From contig NC_016633.1 in assembly GCF_000236685.1 (NCBI RefSeq), positions 1,488,001 through 1,552,000 on the forward strand: a DNA stretch of 64,000 nt, read 5' to 3'. The notes under the pieces are model-generated. The model had not been told where the DNA came from and did not search any database. It was given only the letters and a program-made list of their open reading frames with translations. Of this stretch, positions 7,612-14,588 are shown piece after piece. The number at the start of each line of letters is the position of its first letter. Within the stretch, counting starts at the first letter, position 1. The position numbers and the translations under genes are program-made. This DNA comes from Sphaerochaeta pleomorpha str. Grapes (GTDB lineage: Bacteria; Spirochaetota; Spirochaetia; Sphaerochaetales; Sphaerochaetaceae).

Positions 7612-9969
7612 ATGATAACCAAGAAGGACCAATGCTTCTATCTTTCTACCAAAAATACAACCTATTTATTCTCCGTCACAGAGACAGGACATCTAGAGCA
7701 CCTCTATTATGGAAAAACAATTGCACCAGATTCTATCAACCTGGAAGCACTCAGTGAAAAACGATCGCTCCCGATCGGAACCGGTACAGCCTATGACAAC
7801 GCCCATAAAACCCTTTTTCTTGGCAACCTCTGCCTTGAGTATTCTACCATGGGAAAGGGCGATTGCAGAGAAAGTTCGGTAGATATTGAATATGGACGGG
7901 GAATGCACACCCTCGATTTCACAGTCAAGGACTTCAGGATCCTGCAGGGAAAGCCAAGAACCTTCGGGGGCCTTGCCGAGTCCTATGGGGACAAGGAAAC
8001 CTGCACCACCCTTGAAATAACACTTAAGGACACCTGCCTGCCCATACGCCTTGCCCTCTCCTACACCGCCTTCGAAGACTCCGATGTCATAACCAGGCGA
8101 TCAACCCTCTTCAACGACAGCGACAGAACTATCACCATACGCAACCTGGCTTCCCTGCAGCTCGATCTCGATGAGGATGACTGGAATTTCGTCACCTTCG
8201 ATGGCGCCTGGTCAAGGGAGCGCTATCAGCATGAGAGACCTTTGATGCCTGGTATCATGATCAACGATAGCAAGACAGGGGTCAGCTCTGCAGAGCACAA
8301 CCCCTGTGTTTTCCTTACCAAACAGGGAAGCACCCCTTCAAACGGAGAATGCATAGGTTGCAACCTCGTCTACAGCGGAAACCATAGGGAACTGGTAGAA
8401 ACCTCCCCCTATGGGAAAGTCAGGCTTTTGACCGGCATCAACCCAGCGACCTTCAGCTGGGAGCTTTCCAGCCAGGACAGGTTCCAGAGTCCCGAGGCTG
8501 TGTTAACCTTCTCGTCCTTGGGAATGAACGGGGCAAGCAACAACTTCCATCACTTTATCAACAACCATATCGTCAGGGGACCTTGGAAATTCAGGGAAAG
8601 ACCCGTATTGGTAAACAACTGGGAAGCTACTTATTTCAATTTCTCCGAAGACAAACTCATCGCCCTTGCAAAACAATCGGCAGAGCTCGGGGCAGAACTC
8701 TTCGTCCTCGATGACGGCTGGTTCGGTATCCGCAACGACGATACCACTAGCCTCGGGGACTGGACGGTCAACCCAAAGAAACTGCCTTCCGGCCTTTCCA
8801 GGCTGTCGCTTGAAATACACCGTCTGGGTATGATGTTCGGCCTCTGGGTTGAACCGGAAATGATCAGCGTTGAAAGCGAACTCTACAAGAAACACCCCGA
8901 CTGGATGGTAGCCATCCCGGGGCGCACTCCCAGTGTCGGAAGAAACCAACACCTCCTCGACCTTACCCGGCTTGACGTTAGGGAATACCTGTTCAAAATA
9001 CTTTCAGACACCTGGCACCTGGCCGATGTAAACTATATCAAGTGGGATATGAACAGAACCTTCTCCGACCTGTATAGTGCAAACAGCGAAATCCACAACC
9101 ACGGGGAATTCATCCATCGCTACGTCCTTGGCCTGTATGAATTGCTTTCCCGCCTGACAGCCGCATTCCCCAATGTACTGTTTGAGTCGTGTGCAAGCGG
9201 CGGAAACCGTTTCGACCTCGGCATGCTGTGCTTTATGCCGCAGACCTGGACCAGTGACAATACCGATGCCCTTTGCCGGCTCTACATCCAGGAAGGAACC
9301 TCCTGCGGATATCCTCTCTCTACAATGGGGTCGCATGTAAGTGCTTCACCCAACCACCAAACCCTTCGAAAGACCGATTTAGATTCACGGTTCAACATAG
9401 CGGCCTTTGGAGTCCTAGGATACGAACTTGACATAACCAAGCTTACCCGCCAACAGAAAGAAGCGGTCAAGGCCCAGATTTCTTTTTACAAAGCCCACCG
9501 GGCAATTTTGCAGTTCGGTACCTTTAACCGGATAAAACTGGCAAACAGCAGTTCCAACCAGGTGGTATGGCTCGTGCACAACGCTGACAAATCGGAACTA
9601 TTGGTGCTTTTTGCCCAGAAACTGAATCCGAGCAACCCGGGAACGGATAAACTTCGCATTGAAGGTGCTCATCTCGAAGCTATATATGAAGTCTTCCCAC
9701 GGCAGCAGAAAATTGACCTGAAATCAATCGGGGACCTTATCAACCAGATAAGCCCCTTTGCCATCAGCGAGGGAAGCAAAACCCAGGATGCTCTCAGTAA
9801 TGCCGTCTCCCTGGACAGCGAAATCGAACATTACAGGGTTAGCGGGGAATTGTTGGCTAATGCAGGGATCAAGCTGAACCAACAGTTCGGCGGAACCGGA
9901 TATAATGCAGAAACCCGTGTCCTCGGTGATTTCGGGAGTCGGCTCTACATCTTTAAAAGGATCAACTAG
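7612..9969 (+). CDS. alpha-galactosidase, glycoside hydrolase family 36
   Basis: 785 residues from the ATG that follows an AAGGAG site by 6 bp. It hydrolyses terminal alpha-1,6-galactosides such as melibiose and raffinose. Landmarks: FVLDDGWFG (beta-strand with substrate-binding Asp pair), KWDMNR with nucleophile Asp479, SCASGGNRFD loop, and TWTSDNTD with the acid/base Asp549; the 70-residue gap between the two carboxylates matches that of characterised GH36 enzymes of similar length. No signal peptide, so it acts inside the cell on imported oligosaccharide. The end overlaps the convergent oxidoreductase gene by 4 bp. No transporter for alpha-galactosides is adjacent. Confidence 0.95.
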   Translation: MITKKDQCFYLSTKNTTYLFSVTETGHLEHLYYGKTIAPDSINLEALSEKRSLPIGTGTAYDNAHKTLFLGNLCLEYSTMGKGDCRESSVDIEYGRGMHTLDFTVKDFRILQGKPRTFGGLAESYGDKETCTTLEITLKDTCLPIRLALSYTAFEDSDVITRRSTLFNDSDRTITIRNLASLQLDLDEDDWNFVTFDGAWSRERYQHERPLMPGIMINDSKTGVSSAEHNPCVFLTKQGSTPSNGECIGCNLVYSGNHRELVETSPYGKVRLLTGINPATFSWELSSQDRFQSPEAVLTFSSLGMNGASNNFHHFINNHIVRGPWKFRERPVLVNNWEATYFNFSEDKLIALAKQSAELGAELFVLDDGWFGIRNDDTTSLGDWTVNPKKLPSGLSRLSLEIHRLGMMFGLWVEPEMISVESELYKKHPDWMVAIPGRTPSVGRNQHLLDLTRLDVREYLFKILSDTWHLADVNYIKWDMNRTFSDLYSANSEIHNHGEFIHRYVLGLYELLSRLTAAFPNVLFESCASGGNRFDLGMLCFMPQTWTSDNTDALCRLYIQEGTSCGYPLSTMGSHVSASPNHQTLRKTDLDSRFNIAAFGVLGYELDITKLTRQQKEAVKAQISFYKAHRAILQFGTFNRIKLANSSSNQVVWLVHNADKSELLVLFAQKLNPSNPGTDKLRIEGAHLEAIYEVFPRQQKIDLKSIGDLINQISPFAISEGSKTQDALSNAVSLDSEIEHYRVSGELLANAGIKLNQQFGGTGYNAETRVLGDFGSRLYIFKRIN

Positions 9970-11093
9970 AAGGACAGCAGTTCTGCAATTTCCTCAGGGG
10001 TAACGGCCTTCAGATAGTGAGAACGAAGGAAGGCCACGTTTTCGACACTGCCATAGAGCAGAGCTCCCTTGAGCTTTCCATCCTCGACGAAATACGCTTC
10101 ATACCGCCCATCCTTCAATTTATTGGTGCTTGCTCCCGAGACATCCCCCACGCTCACAATTTCCAACTTCTCATCTTTGAAACGAGTCATCAGCACGGGG
10201 GGAATATAGTCCTTTGTTTCCCCGAGCAATGTAGCCATAACGCTCTGGGCCATCCCAATGGCAACGGGAAGAATGCCTGGCACCTGTCCCTTATATTGGG
10301 CGCAGTCTCCGATTGCAAAGATATGCTCATCGCTGGTCCTCAGCTTTTCATCGACGACAATACCCCTGTCGACTTCAAGATCGGCATCCTTGGCCAAGGA
10401 AGTCTCAGCGTTCACCCCCAAGGAGAGAATAAGGGTTTTGCAGGGGATATCCTCTCTGCCTTCCACGACCAAGGCCTCGATCCGATTGTCTTGGTCGACT
10501 CGTTTGCCAGTAGCTTTTATGCATTCATTGATTACAAGGCCGTCCGACTCCAGCTGGACGCGTAACAGTTTTGAGGCCTTTGCATCAAGCTGCCTTGCAA
10601 GGATATGCGAAGCACCTTCACATACAGTGACACCATAACCTTTGCGCAGTATGGCCAAAGCAGCCTCGAGGCCAAGCAATCCACCGCCTAGTACCACCAC
10701 GGGATCTGCAAGGGTCTGGCTTATCAACAAGGCATCCTCGAGGGTTCTCAGCGTGCTGACTCCTTTCGTATTGGCAAAAGCATCGAGTACCCTTCCCCTG
10801 CTTCCGGTTGCAAGTACAAGGAAATCATAAGGGGAGGTTTCACCATCATCCAGAAGGATTTCCTGTTTCTGGCGGTCAATTTTCTTTACTGCCTTATGGA
10901 CCAGGTAGGGAGCCTCCCTCGTAGAGGGAAGTGCGCAGAGCCCCTCTTCATCACAGAGCAGCTGGGGAAGTTTAATCCTGCTGTAGAACCCATACGGTTC
11001 CTCCGTGTATAAAGTAACAGCAACACCTCGGCTGGAAAGTCTCTCAGCTACCATGGAACCTGCCACACCATTACCAATCACACATACTCGCAT
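9966..11093 (-). CDS. FAD/NAD(P)-dependent oxidoreductase (rubredoxin/NirB-type reductase fold)
   Basis: 375 residues. An N-terminal FAD-binding motif (CVIGNGVAGSMVAE, residues 4-17), an ATGS turn near residue 95, an NAD(P)-binding motif (VVVLGGGLLGLEAA, near 132-145) and the second FAD motif (IFAIGDCAQY, near 258) are all in family order. No CxxC redox pair is present, so it is not a thioredoxin-reductase or lipoamide-type enzyme. It fits the group of rubredoxin reductases, NADH oxidases and NirB N-terminal domains that pass electrons from NAD(P)H to small iron proteins or oxygen. The partner is not obvious from the neighbours. Role in oxygen or NO defence is a guess. Confidence 0.85.
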   Translation of the reverse strand: MRVCVIGNGVAGSMVAERLSSRGVAVTLYTEEPYGFYSRIKLPQLLCDEEGLCALPSTREAPYLVHKAVKKIDRQKQEILLDDGETSPYDFLVLATGSRGRVLDAFANTKGVSTLRTLEDALLISQTLADPVVVLGGGLLGLEAALAILRKGYGVTVCEGASHILARQLDAKASKLLRVQLESDGLVINECIKATGKRVDQDNRIEALVVEGREDIPCKTLILSLGVNAETSLAKDADLEVDRGIVVDEKLRTSDEHIFAIGDCAQYKGQVPGILPVAIGMAQSVMATLLGETKDYIPPVLMTRFKDEKLEIVSVGDVSGASTNKLKDGRYEAYFVEDGKLKGALLYGSVENVAFLRSHYLKAVTPEEIAELLSF

Positions 11094-11184: not shown

Positions 11185-11679
11185 ATGGCGATCATGGAAC
11201 AAATCGTTATATATATCGAAGAGAACGCCCAAGGCAATACGCTCTATCAGCGCTATCTAAGCGAATGCCAGGCTATCAGGAAAACCGTGTTCATCGAAGG
11301 ACAGGACGTTGCCCCCGAGATAGACCTGGACGGCCTTGATACCTCGTGTGCCCATCTGCTTTTGCTCCTGGGTGAAAAACCGGCGGCGACACTGAGGATA
11401 CGCAAAACCGCCGAAGGAACAAAACTTGAACGGGTAGCGGTTTTGCAAGAGTTCCGAGGTCACAACTATGGCAAACTCCTTGTCCAGTGCGCACTCGCTC
11501 TCAGTGAACCTCCTGTATATATCCATGCCCAGGTACCAAGTGAAGGGTTCTACAAGAATCTGGGCTTCACCGTGGAAGACCCAACGATTTTCTATGAAGC
11601 AAACATCCCCCACAGAACCATGTTCTGGCCAAACCATATAAAAGGAAAAACACAGTGCAACATCATAAGACTATCGTAA
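11185..11679 (+). CDS. GNAT-family N-acetyltransferase
   Basis: About 164 residues. The start is uncertain: ATG at 11185 or 11194, with no strong RBS; codons upstream of 11185 do not look like part of the protein. The acetyl-CoA loop is visible as ERVAVLQEFRGHNYGKLLVQ (V-x-x-x-x-R-G-x-x-x-G-x-x-L), followed by the strand VYIHAQ and the FYKNLGF motif near the end. This layout fits the ElaA/YjcF-like acyltransferases. The substrate is unknown. It overlaps the following gpsA by 25 bp, so the two are probably co-translated. Confidence 0.82.
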   Translation: MAIMEQIVIYIEENAQGNTLYQRYLSECQAIRKTVFIEGQDVAPEIDLDGLDTSCAHLLLLLGEKPAATLRIRKTAEGTKLERVAVLQEFRGHNYGKLLVQCALALSEPPVYIHAQVPSEGFYKNLGFTVEDPTIFYEANIPHRTMFWPNHIKGKTQCNIIRLS

Positions 11680-12623
11680 TTGCAGGGGCTGGCGTATTCG
11701 GGACAGCCATTGCCGAACGCCTTGCCTGGAATGATACAAATACAGTCATCCTCTGGACTATTGAAGAGGATGTAGTACAGGACATCAATAAAAACCATAG
11801 GAATAGCAAATATTTCCCCACCCACTTTTTGAACACGACTATCAGGGCAACCAATGACAAGGAAATATTCCGTTCTGCGGACTGCATTCTGCTTGTGATC
11901 CCCTCAAAGGCCATAGTGCCCTTTACCAATGAAATCCAGTCGATGACCAAAGAAGGCTGCATGGTAATAAACCTTGCAAAGGGAATGAGTGACGACGGGG
12001 CCTTCATCACCGAAAAAATCCCGTTTGCCCGGACGGCAAGCATGAAAGGGCCGACCTTTGCCATAGAGGTGCTCAACGGCCTTCCTTCGGCATTCACCTT
12101 CGGAGGAAGCAAAGCAGACTACCTGGAATTCAAGGAAGAAGTACTGAAAGGAACCGGTCTCTACCTGGACCATACCGTCGATATCCGCTCCGTTGAACTG
12201 ATGAGTGTCTTGAAAAATATGTATGCAATAGCCATTGGTCTGGTCTCGGGCAGATTCAATTCCCCTAATGTTGATTTTCTGGTCTATACGAAGGCTGTCA
12301 ATGAAATGAGAAAATTCCTCACCCTTTTTGATTGCGATCCACAGACTATCTTCTGTTACTGCGGACTCGGAGACCTGGGACTTACCAGTCTCAATGACCT
12401 TTCCAGGAACAGAACCATGGGATTGCTGATGGGCAAAGGTTTTTCCATCGACAACAGCGGCAGCTCATCGACAGTAGTGGAAGGGTGCAGAACCATAAAA
12501 CTCATGGGGGAAATGACAAGGGAAAAAGGCCTCAAGGAAGAATACCCGCTCGTCCAGGCACTCTACAGGCTGATGAATGAAGGTGAATCACTCAATGACT
12601 ATATGATGGCTACCTTTTCCTGA
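11655..12623 (+). CDS. gpsA: NAD(P)-dependent glycerol-3-phosphate dehydrogenase
   Basis: 322 residues, normal for GpsA, which makes sn-glycerol 3-phosphate from dihydroxyacetone phosphate for phospholipid synthesis. The N-terminal Rossmann motif is GAGVFGTAIAERLAW (residues 11-25). The middle has INLAKGM and the GPTFA motif, then VLKNMYAIAIGLVSG, where the Lys is the catalytic one of the family, and GLGDLGLTS followed by SRNRTMG in the C-terminal helical domain. It overlaps the GNAT gene by 25 bp. A 16-bp near-perfect inverted repeat follows 80 bp downstream. Confidence 0.9.
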   Translation: MQHHKTIVIAGAGVFGTAIAERLAWNDTNTVILWTIEEDVVQDINKNHRNSKYFPTHFLNTTIRATNDKEIFRSADCILLVIPSKAIVPFTNEIQSMTKEGCMVINLAKGMSDDGAFITEKIPFARTASMKGPTFAIEVLNGLPSAFTFGGSKADYLEFKEEVLKGTGLYLDHTVDIRSVELMSVLKNMYAIAIGLVSGRFNSPNVDFLVYTKAVNEMRKFLTLFDCDPQTIFCYCGLGDLGLTSLNDLSRNRTMGLLMGKGFSIDNSGSSSTVVEGCRTIKLMGEMTREKGLKEEYPLVQALYRLMNEGESLNDYMMATFS

Positions 12624-12703
12624 CCAGATAGGGGCCAATTAAGAAAAACAGGGAAATAAACCGGTACCAATAAAACGGACAATTGTATAAAAGATTCCTT
12701 TTC

Positions 12704-12750
12704 AACAAGTAGACTCTGTCAAACACAGGGTCTACTTGTTCTTCAATCCT
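12704..12750 (+). terminator. terminator-like inverted repeat after gpsA
   Basis: AACAAGTAGACTCTGT and ACAGGGTCTACTTGTT form a 16-bp stem with one G-T pair and a 5-nt loop, followed by CTTCAATCCTTGG. The T-tract is poor, so it may be a weak terminator or a processing hairpin. Confidence 0.6.
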
Positions 12751-12961
12751 TGGCTCTCTTGTGACCTTGAAATCTGGTAAATGTAAGATGGATTTGGTAT
12801 ACTGTTGCATGGGCGTCCGTCCTTGTTAGCTTGTTTTTTGGTTAAATCAATACTAACAGATGGATTGCCCATTTTCTATAATGATAGGTCAGGTCTCTTT
12901 TTTGGCTGTTTCATCATTCCCCACAGATATTTCCCATGAACCAGATATTTCCCCTACACTC

Positions 12962-13125
12962 AATAAAAAACTCCCTCAAGCTTGCACCCTTGAAGGAGTT
13001 CCGCATAATGCGGGAAGTGTATCCTGCCGTTACCTCAGAAATGAGGGGGAAAAAACTAAACAGGATATAAACGGTGAATCACGTAATGGCCTAAACCAAA
13101 GCAGTCCACACGTCGGACATGTATA
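12962..13125 (-). ncRNA. candidate structured small RNA with own promoter and terminator
   Basis: On the minus strand a good sigma-70 promoter (TTAACA at 13147-13152, 17-bp spacer, TATAGT at 13124-13129) is followed by about 155 nt without a convincing reading frame and then by a rho-independent terminator (AACTCCTTCAAG / CTTGAGGGAGTT and a six-T run ending near 12965). The transcript contains further hairpins: CCTCA/TGAGG, CCGCA/TGCGG, and a longer-range TATCCTG/CAGGATA pairing. No gene follows on that strand before gpsA, so it is unlikely to be a leader. It does not match tmRNA, SRP RNA or RNase P hallmarks that I can recognise. Confidence 0.6.
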
Positions 13126-13242
13126 CTATAACAGTATCTGAGACAAATGTTAAGCCTTTTATTTTTTAAAATACATATATTCGAACCCGAAGGTTGGTTT
13201 TCCATCATATTCAAATATATAGCAATAAAACGTAGGGCAATG

Positions 13243-13965
13243 CTAGAACATCTCCAAAACCATGGAAATGGTTGCCGACACTGTCATCGAACCGGAAGGG
13301 ACCTCGGTTCCCGCTGAAAAACTCTCGGAAGCCATCATTACCTTGGCCCGCACAGAATAGCCGTTCGAGGCAAAGGATGATTCGGTTATGGAAATAGGTC
13401 GCCCTACTTTCATATTCGAACTCTTGGCATACATCTCGGCCTTCTCAAACGCTTCGTCCACGGCTTTCTTCCGGGCTTCCTGGATAGCAGCACTCTTGTC
13501 TTCCTTATCGAACCTGACCGAGTCCAACTGAATTGAGGAAACAGATCCAAGCTGGTCGATCAAAGAGCCAAGCAGGGGAAGGTCCCTAAGGGTTACCGAC
13601 AGGCTCTGGCTTGCTACCTGGCCTGCAAGGAACTGCTTGTTGTCGACCCATTCATACTCTGGCCTCAGGTTCAAGGAGGTAGTGGAAATATCTTTCTCGG
13701 CAATACTGTTAGAGCGGAGCACTGTTAGCAATTCAGCCATCTTGGCATTTGCAAAGGCTTGGGCTTCGCTTGTCGTCGGGGCCCTCTCGCTTACCTGGAT
13801 GGAGAATGTAGCGATATCGGGTTGCAGCACTACCTCACCTGATCCTGAAATCTCAATTGTACGTACCAAACCTGGTTCTCCGCCTTTCGCACTCATGCAG
13901 GAGGAAAGGAAAAGAACCAATACCATCGACAGGGCGCAATAAGAGAGTACGTGTAATCTTTTCAT
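13243..13965 (-). CDS. SIMPL-domain (DUF541) lipoprotein
   Basis: 240 residues. The N-terminus has a lipoprotein signal with lipobox LSSC (Cys at about residue 23), so the mature protein is membrane-anchored on the periplasmic side. The rest matches the SIMPL/DUF541 pattern: an opening strand IEISGSGEVVLQPDIATFSIQV, an ENxA-like helix, LNLRPEYEW, and a late repeat of the beta-alpha-beta unit ending VSATISMVLE. Members include the oxidative-stress protein family of E. coli YggE; the molecular role is not known. It is the last gene of a leftward Mrp-Nudix-SIMPL group, 14 bp after the Nudix gene. Confidence 0.87.
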   Translation of the reverse strand: MKRLHVLSYCALSMVLVLFLSSCMSAKGGEPGLVRTIEISGSGEVVLQPDIATFSIQVSERAPTTSEAQAFANAKMAELLTVLRSNSIAEKDISTTSLNLRPEYEWVDNKQFLAGQVASQSLSVTLRDLPLLGSLIDQLGSVSSIQLDSVRFDKEDKSAAIQEARKKAVDEAFEKAEMYAKSSNMKVGRPISITESSFASNGYSVRAKVMMASESFSAGTEVPSGSMTVSATISMVLEMF

Positions 13966-13979
13966 GGAACCACTCCTAA

Positions 13980-14588
13980 TTATGTATAGAGATACGGTCT
14001 TAGTTTTGCTTCCCGAAGGAAGAACCCAAGGGCAATCATCATAATACCATTGTCATAAAGGCCTGTTCCCATGGAAAGAAGAATCTCCTCTACAGGGACA
14101 GAAAGAACATCAAGCTGTTCATTTGGGTCAAGGTTCTGGGCAGCTACCAAGTCCAAACCCTCGGCAAGGTAAAAATAGGACCTGTTGTTCATGAACGCAG
14201 AGTTGGGACTGACATTGCCCAATAGTTTTATGGGGTCGGCATCAAGCCCTGTCTCTTCTTTCAATTCCCGAATTGCAGCCTTGACCGGTTCTTCGCCTTT
14301 CTCGATAACCCCAGCGGGGAATTCCCTGGTTACCGTAGAGGAACCATGTCGGAACTGCTGGACCATGACAAACATAGGCCTGCCGTCTTCACCTCGGTAC
14401 CAGGGGATTACCGTGACCCAGTCAGGGCTGTCTACTTCGATAAAACGGGAAACCCTACCATCTGAAGAAGTCCGTTCAATGGTACAAATGTCAAAGATCG
14501 GACCCTTGAAAACCTCTTTCCGCTCCCCGCTTTTCCATATTAGGTGGTCGATGTCGCAGGTATCACCAACATTGAACGGATCTCTCAT
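13980..14588 (-). CDS. Nudix hydrolase, ADP-ribose pyrophosphatase type
   Basis: 202 residues. The Nudix box is complete: G-V-I-E-K-G-E-E then REL-K-E-E-T-G-L (about residues 93-117), the metal-binding site for nucleoside-diphosphate hydrolysis. The size and the preceding FVMVQQFRHG stretch are typical of ADP-sugar pyrophosphatases, which recycle ADP-ribose. It starts 2 bp after the stop codon of the Mrp gene, with a GGAAA site, so the two are co-transcribed. Confidence 0.88.
   Translation of the reverse strand: MRDPFNVGDTCDIDHLIWKSGERKEVFKGPIFDICTIERTSSDGRVSRFIEVDSPDWVTVIPWYRGEDGRPMFVMVQQFRHGSSTVTREFPAGVIEKGEEPVKAAIRELKEETGLDADPIKLLGNVSPNSAFMNNRSYFYLAEGLDLVAAQNLDPNEQLDVLSVPVEEILLSMGTGLYDNGIMMIALGFFLREAKLRPYLYT

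Follow-up and report, generated by a model that had tools for sequence, protein, structure and literature searches.

6S RNA has the shape of a closed rod with a large central bubble. In Bacillus, the small RNAs FsrA and RoxS act on their targets through C-rich regions, as described in part of PMC8216469. For Sphaerochaeta, literature on small and non-coding RNAs yielded nothing on an RNA of the kind described below, by title or by the start of the abstract, and a search for its transcriptome found none by title among the best 10 of 85 records; the excerpts of PMC8632094 and PMC7160235 contain nothing on this RNA.

The window analyzed is a stretch of 64,000 nucleotides from the Sphaerochaeta pleomorpha genome (3.59 Mb, a single contig). 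Sequence comparison gives good support for a free-standing gene for a small RNA on its minus strand, at 13118-12962, and we judge the RNA to be a new family within a known class, that of bacterial sRNAs. The transcription unit (minus strand, 13153-12962) comprises a promoter, an RNA of four hairpins and an intrinsic terminator. Its features and neighbors are as follows, with gene names taken from resemblance and from the original prediction.

13148-13153, minus strand: -35 element TTAACA, from the sequence, its position conserved in relatives
13125-13130, minus strand: extended -10 element TATAGT with TG two bases before it, from the sequence, its position conserved in relatives
12962-13118, minus strand: small RNA transcript of ~157 nt, its start predicted from where the -10 element lies and from a conserved GUCC
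13070-13114, minus strand: hairpin P1, from the single-sequence fold, its outer stem with two-sided changes at 5 of 8 pairs among 16 same-genus sequences
13020-13067, minus strand: hairpin P2, from single-sequence folds and covariation
13047-13053, minus strand: internal loop of P2, UUUUCCC (motif UUUCCCC) opposite a single U, from folds; proposed seed 1
13001-13013, minus strand: hairpin P3 (CCGCA..UGCGG), from folds, with two-sided changes at 5 of 5 pairs
12969-13000, minus strand: hairpin P4, the 12-pair intrinsic-terminator stem with an 8-nt loop, from folds and covariation
12981-12988, minus strand: terminator loop GGUGCAAG (family RKUGCAAG), from the alignment; proposed seed 2 or protein site
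12965-12970, minus strand: terminator U-run TTTTTT, from the sequence
13243-13965, minus strand: SIMPL-type gene, upstream and outside the RNA, a conserved neighbor in the relatives' loci
13980-14588, minus strand: NUDIX-type gene, upstream of the SIMPL gene, by resemblance
11655-12623, opposite in direction to the RNA: gpsA, converging from the other side, by resemblance

The original prediction at this locus was of a small RNA gene standing on its own, with a promoter, several hairpins, a terminator and no coding frame; the folding score, the conserved promoter and the covariation described below bear this out. The transcript folds at -50.7 kcal/mol, compared with -38.3 ± 3.8 in 200 dinucleotide shuffles, none of which folds as well (z = -3.29). 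The P4 terminator is apparent in both folds and alignments; a simple terminator consensus scan left it unlisted and listed two other, weaker ones. Neither the transcript nor its relatives contain long sense reading frames, and the short ones are unrelated and not shared, leading us to reject a small protein. Comparison of the relatives' sequences establishes a predicted sigma-70 promoter of the RNA's own at a fixed distance, four covarying hairpins, an intrinsic terminator, the lack of a conserved reading frame and a single copy per genome. Its own promoter and terminator and its lack of coding content are as expected of a trans-acting bacterial sRNA, whereas pattern searches for targets encoded elsewhere were negative (see below).

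The prediction had been made to depend on conservation in close relatives, and the RNA is kept in 30 of the 139 genomes in our Sphaerochaetaceae set. Searching these genomes with blastn matched 23, own included (E ≤ 2.2e-12), whereas a covariance model built from 16 same-genus sequences (R1) matched 31 and a core model built from 20 sequences of five genera (R2) matched 32, 30 of them at E ≤ 2.5e-13. The two models agree on 30 genomes from five genera, each with one sense-strand copy; matches on the antisense strand are mostly the self-complementary terminator. Genomes G127 and G137 (E 0.01-0.03) were left out, as was G005, which R1 matched at E 0.001 and R2 did not match. The own genus (g1) contributes 20 members from its 26 genomes, own genome included, with four more in g13, three in g14, two in g2 and one in g17, and the family's other genera (22 are in the set) mostly gave no match to the RNA. 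The six g1 genomes without the RNA need not be real absences, because the SIMPL gene was found in only two of them, in G098 100 bases separate it from the start of the contig, on the side expected for the RNA, and in G108 its match ends at residue 196 of 240.

Beyond the family, an even sample of 392 genomes from the phylum gave good scores only in its five family members. Ten other genomes showed weak matches (E 0.002-0.09) without the combined motifs and shape, and these were rejected as members, being fewer than chance predicts at the threshold and missing the features. An exact-pattern scan (TTTCCCCCTC, a gap, then GTGCAAGCNTG) of a collection of named genomes from 84,980 species, which is narrow and misses variants, returned 23 stretches. 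Fifteen of them are from spirochaetes, including Sphaerochaeta sp., S. halotolerans, Pleomorphochaeta sp. and Spirochaetales, and all 15 match R2 at about 1e-17 or better; the remaining eight have no such match. Plasmid records held no match to the RNA. As the matches outside the family in the sample and the scan are at chance level, the RNA family appears on present evidence to be confined to Sphaerochaetaceae.

Aligning the region from relatives and testing it for covariation had been proposed as a check, which we carried out on a sequence-only alignment (A5) of 20 of the 30 members. Folded singly, 18 of these 20 form P3, P4 and a P2 whose C-rich bulge measures 6-8 nt. Of the 34 core pairs, 24 show compensatory changes on both sides, a count that none of 500 shuffles equals, and neither the fraction of cells that pair (83.9%) nor the covariation score (0.387) was reached in 500 shuffles; sliding the partners brings the score to 0.07-0.14. 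With MAFFT and RNAalifold (23 sequences), hairpin 1 and the lower stem of P2 were misaligned, so that nothing beyond the terminator and the upper P2 helix was recovered, and the structures were therefore taken from single-sequence folds. Control (b) of the covariation tests favors a structure taken in this way. Since the structure also derives from the same sequences and the shuffles keep shared ancestry, these figures are supportive rather than formal probabilities. The comparative data indicate that the structure of the RNA is under selection. P1 varies between genera, being altered in g14 and apparently missing in g2.

Two motifs are fixed within this structure. UUUCCCC is unpaired in all 20 single folds, as a bulge in 18 and as a terminal loop in the two g2 members, and UGCAAGC is invariant in all 20 aligned members; member extraction was anchored on TGCAAG and TTTCCCC, and no chosen member was lost for want of them. 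The terminator loop keeps UGCAAG though its stem varies from CAAG/CUUG to CAUG/CAUG or AAAG/CUUU, and an invariant loop in a terminator is unusual and testable. The g2 members lose the helix above the bulge yet retain UUUCCCC, which argues that sequence rather than bulge shape matters.

On a modest balance of probability, we read the RNA as a regulatory sRNA that acts in trans, exposes two recognition motifs, is probably independent of Hfq and is found in Sphaerochaetaceae only, as far as searched. Its action in trans would probably be by base pairing, which is the inferred part of this reading. RNA polymerase would transcribe the RNA from its own promoter, and stable hairpins would protect it while keeping two segments single-stranded, UUUCCCC within P2 and RKUGCAAG at the loop of the terminator. 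On target RNAs, the motifs would then pair with G-runs and with stretches of the CUUGCA type, and this pairing would alter target translation or decay, without Hfq, as in the Firmicutes C-rich sRNAs. The RNA would act without Hfq because none was detected, the best match to the Hfq profile in the genome scoring 12 bits against a cut-off of 27. The model misses divergent members, and only 5 of 14 control genomes gave a score above the cut-off, so the absence of Hfq is not proven. B. burgdorferi is likewise without Hfq, according to a portion of PMC11607428, and Hfq-free action would thus not be odd in a spirochaete.

When duplexes with 53 start regions of the window were scored, 196 of 200 shuffles of the C-rich stretch paired better than the stretch itself, and 126 of 200 shuffles of the terminator loop did at least as well as the loop. 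The C-rich site would therefore need special G-run targets and is not a general anti-Shine-Dalgarno sequence, although individual strong sites may exist despite the weak average. Two target pattern searches gave 36 and 52 sites compared with 16 and 34 for the reversed-pattern control (sums over 26 rows), totals in which near-identical genomes repeat the same sites. The sites analyzed, 30 loci per search, are for the most part internal to reading frames, and the searches showed no site conserved in a start region. Separately, two 440-aa reading frames in the window, around 53693 and 59900 on the minus strand, have identical start regions, which suggests a recent duplication or a mobile element. 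We propose only tentatively that the terminator hairpin is itself a working part, its invariant 8-nt loop RKUGCAAG serving as a second recognition site beside the C-rich site in P2, so that one Hfq-free, family-wide RNA would read two target signals.

Just past the terminator, at 12905-12960, the direct repeat CAGATATTTCCC occurs twice along with a further TTCCCC. Read on the sRNA strand, this region contains GGGGAAA/GGGAAA/GGGGAA, the exact complement of UUUCCCC, and could form a sponge-like read-through extension; the repeats are not conserved in the relatives' loci. A plus-strand promoter-like site lies at 12853-12882.

The same two motifs allow a serious rival to the pairing sRNA, in which a structural RNA binds a protein through the asymmetric P2 loop and the terminator loop and titrates or guides it, with no base pairing. 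Both motifs sit in defined structural contexts, where an invariant bulge and loop could equally be protein sites, and neither the start-region duplexes nor the two pattern searches revealed a conserved pairing target. However, the shift of UUUCCCC from a bulge to a terminal loop in g2 is less likely to be tolerated by a protein pocket, and no candidate protein is known. We consider protein binding without pairing rather unlikely, and retain the trans-acting sRNA as our preferred reading.

Whether the RNA is a gene of its own depends on its promoter and its neighbors. The promoter (TTAACA-17-TATAGT) matches the consensus at 10 of 12 positions with a 17-nt spacer. Taken alone, it exceeds chance only moderately: scores as high arise in 12 of 300 shuffles of the 65 nt upstream, and 2.2 kb contain five promoter-like sites against 2.4 ± 1.7 in shuffles. 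It is for its conservation that we take the promoter, and with it the gene, as real. Of 30 sequences, own one included, 26 have their best promoter match equally far from the RNA and with a 17-nt spacer, and a 27th (L008) shows a tie between this site and another. It was unrecognized at the expected place in L021, L059 and L060 among the 30 scanned, and the conserved-place promoter was not found in L021 and the two g2 members. The g13 members have TTGACA as the -35 element, and some members have a weak one (TTCCCA or TTCCCT) with the extended -10 intact, an arrangement that may reflect regulation.

The RNA had also been called an orphan, with no gene behind it. Its own promoter agrees with this description, but in three of the five genera (g1, g14 and g17) the RNA comes after the NUDIX-SIMPL pair and shares its strand, so the term holds only in part. 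In g2 the RNA follows the NUDIX gene. In g13 (L026, L027 and L029) it lies away from the pair, near a homolog of the window's FAD-type oxidoreductase gene (9966-11093), which in the window is separated from the RNA by gpsA. Among the loci fetched, gpsA adjoins the RNA in this species alone. The RNA could instead derive from the NUDIX-SIMPL mRNA, as a 3′ end released by processing or as its terminator region, and not be an independent gene, an explanation that draws on the shared gene order and on the three loci without a recognized promoter. We think it improbable, as the promoter is conserved at a fixed place in most members and the g13 RNAs have neither NUDIX nor SIMPL nearby. Moreover, the gap between the SIMPL gene and the RNA contains a strong terminator in L053 and, in the window, a hairpin that resembles one, so the RNA looks like its own unit.

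Comparison with known families identifies no relative. Searching Rfam 15 gave nothing above threshold for the RNA in the window or in seven relatives' loci; at E ≤ 1, the sole match in these loci (25 bits compared with the 80 required, E 0.47) lies well away from it. The suggestion that the RNA is not yet described therefore stands as regards Rfam. That it is not tmRNA, SRP RNA or RNase P also holds, the window's only gathering-level match being a cobalamin riboswitch. This riboswitch is located at 2248-2427 on the plus strand (84.3 bits).

The suggestion that the RNA is 6S-like did not survive. A 6S variant that binds RNA polymerase would share with 6S RNA (RF00013) the length class of a free-standing RNA, which is the extent of the likeness. 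There is no match to RF00013 in 12600-13260 at E ≤ 10, nor at gathering level anywhere in the window, and the RNA folds as the separate hairpins P1-P4 rather than as a closed rod with a central bubble. The same genome also has a separate candidate at G000:C1:3352596-3352783 (L032; 45.8 bits, E 7e-8, 0.6 under the gathering score of 46.4), which is probably its real 6S RNA. We regard a 6S variant as very improbable. A chance arrangement of promoter-like and hairpin sequences is less credible still, for although a single promoter match of such quality is not rare, the RNA is conserved with covariation across five genera, while the 337 nt on its other side (12624-12960) share just one 19-base stretch with the relatives' loci.

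With one copy per genome, covarying stems, a defined promoter and two exposed motifs that stay fixed, this RNA family offers a direct entry to RNA-based regulation in a spirochaete lineage without detectable Hfq, and could join the catalogs of RNA families. Among described RNAs, RybB (RF00110) resembles it in the 3′ terminator hairpin with a U-run, but the match reaches 18.3 bits compared with a gathering score of 40 (E 0.4), and its alignment is carried by the terminator and leaves out 13 positions of the 5′ part. RoxS, FsrA, CsfG and RsaE of Firmicutes resemble the Sphaerochaeta RNA in other respects: all are small independent RNAs with a terminator and an exposed C-rich stretch beside U's, held by hairpins, and Hfq-free action is likewise proposed here. 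RoxS/RsaE-type families are absent from the Rfam matches at E ≤ 10 in the window region and at E ≤ 1 in the seven relatives' loci. The Sphaerochaeta RNA differs in belonging to another phylum, in combining a single C-rich site with a fixed terminator loop, and in that its C-rich site is not generally complementary to start regions. Its resemblance to the C-rich sRNAs of Firmicutes is thus one of working principle only.
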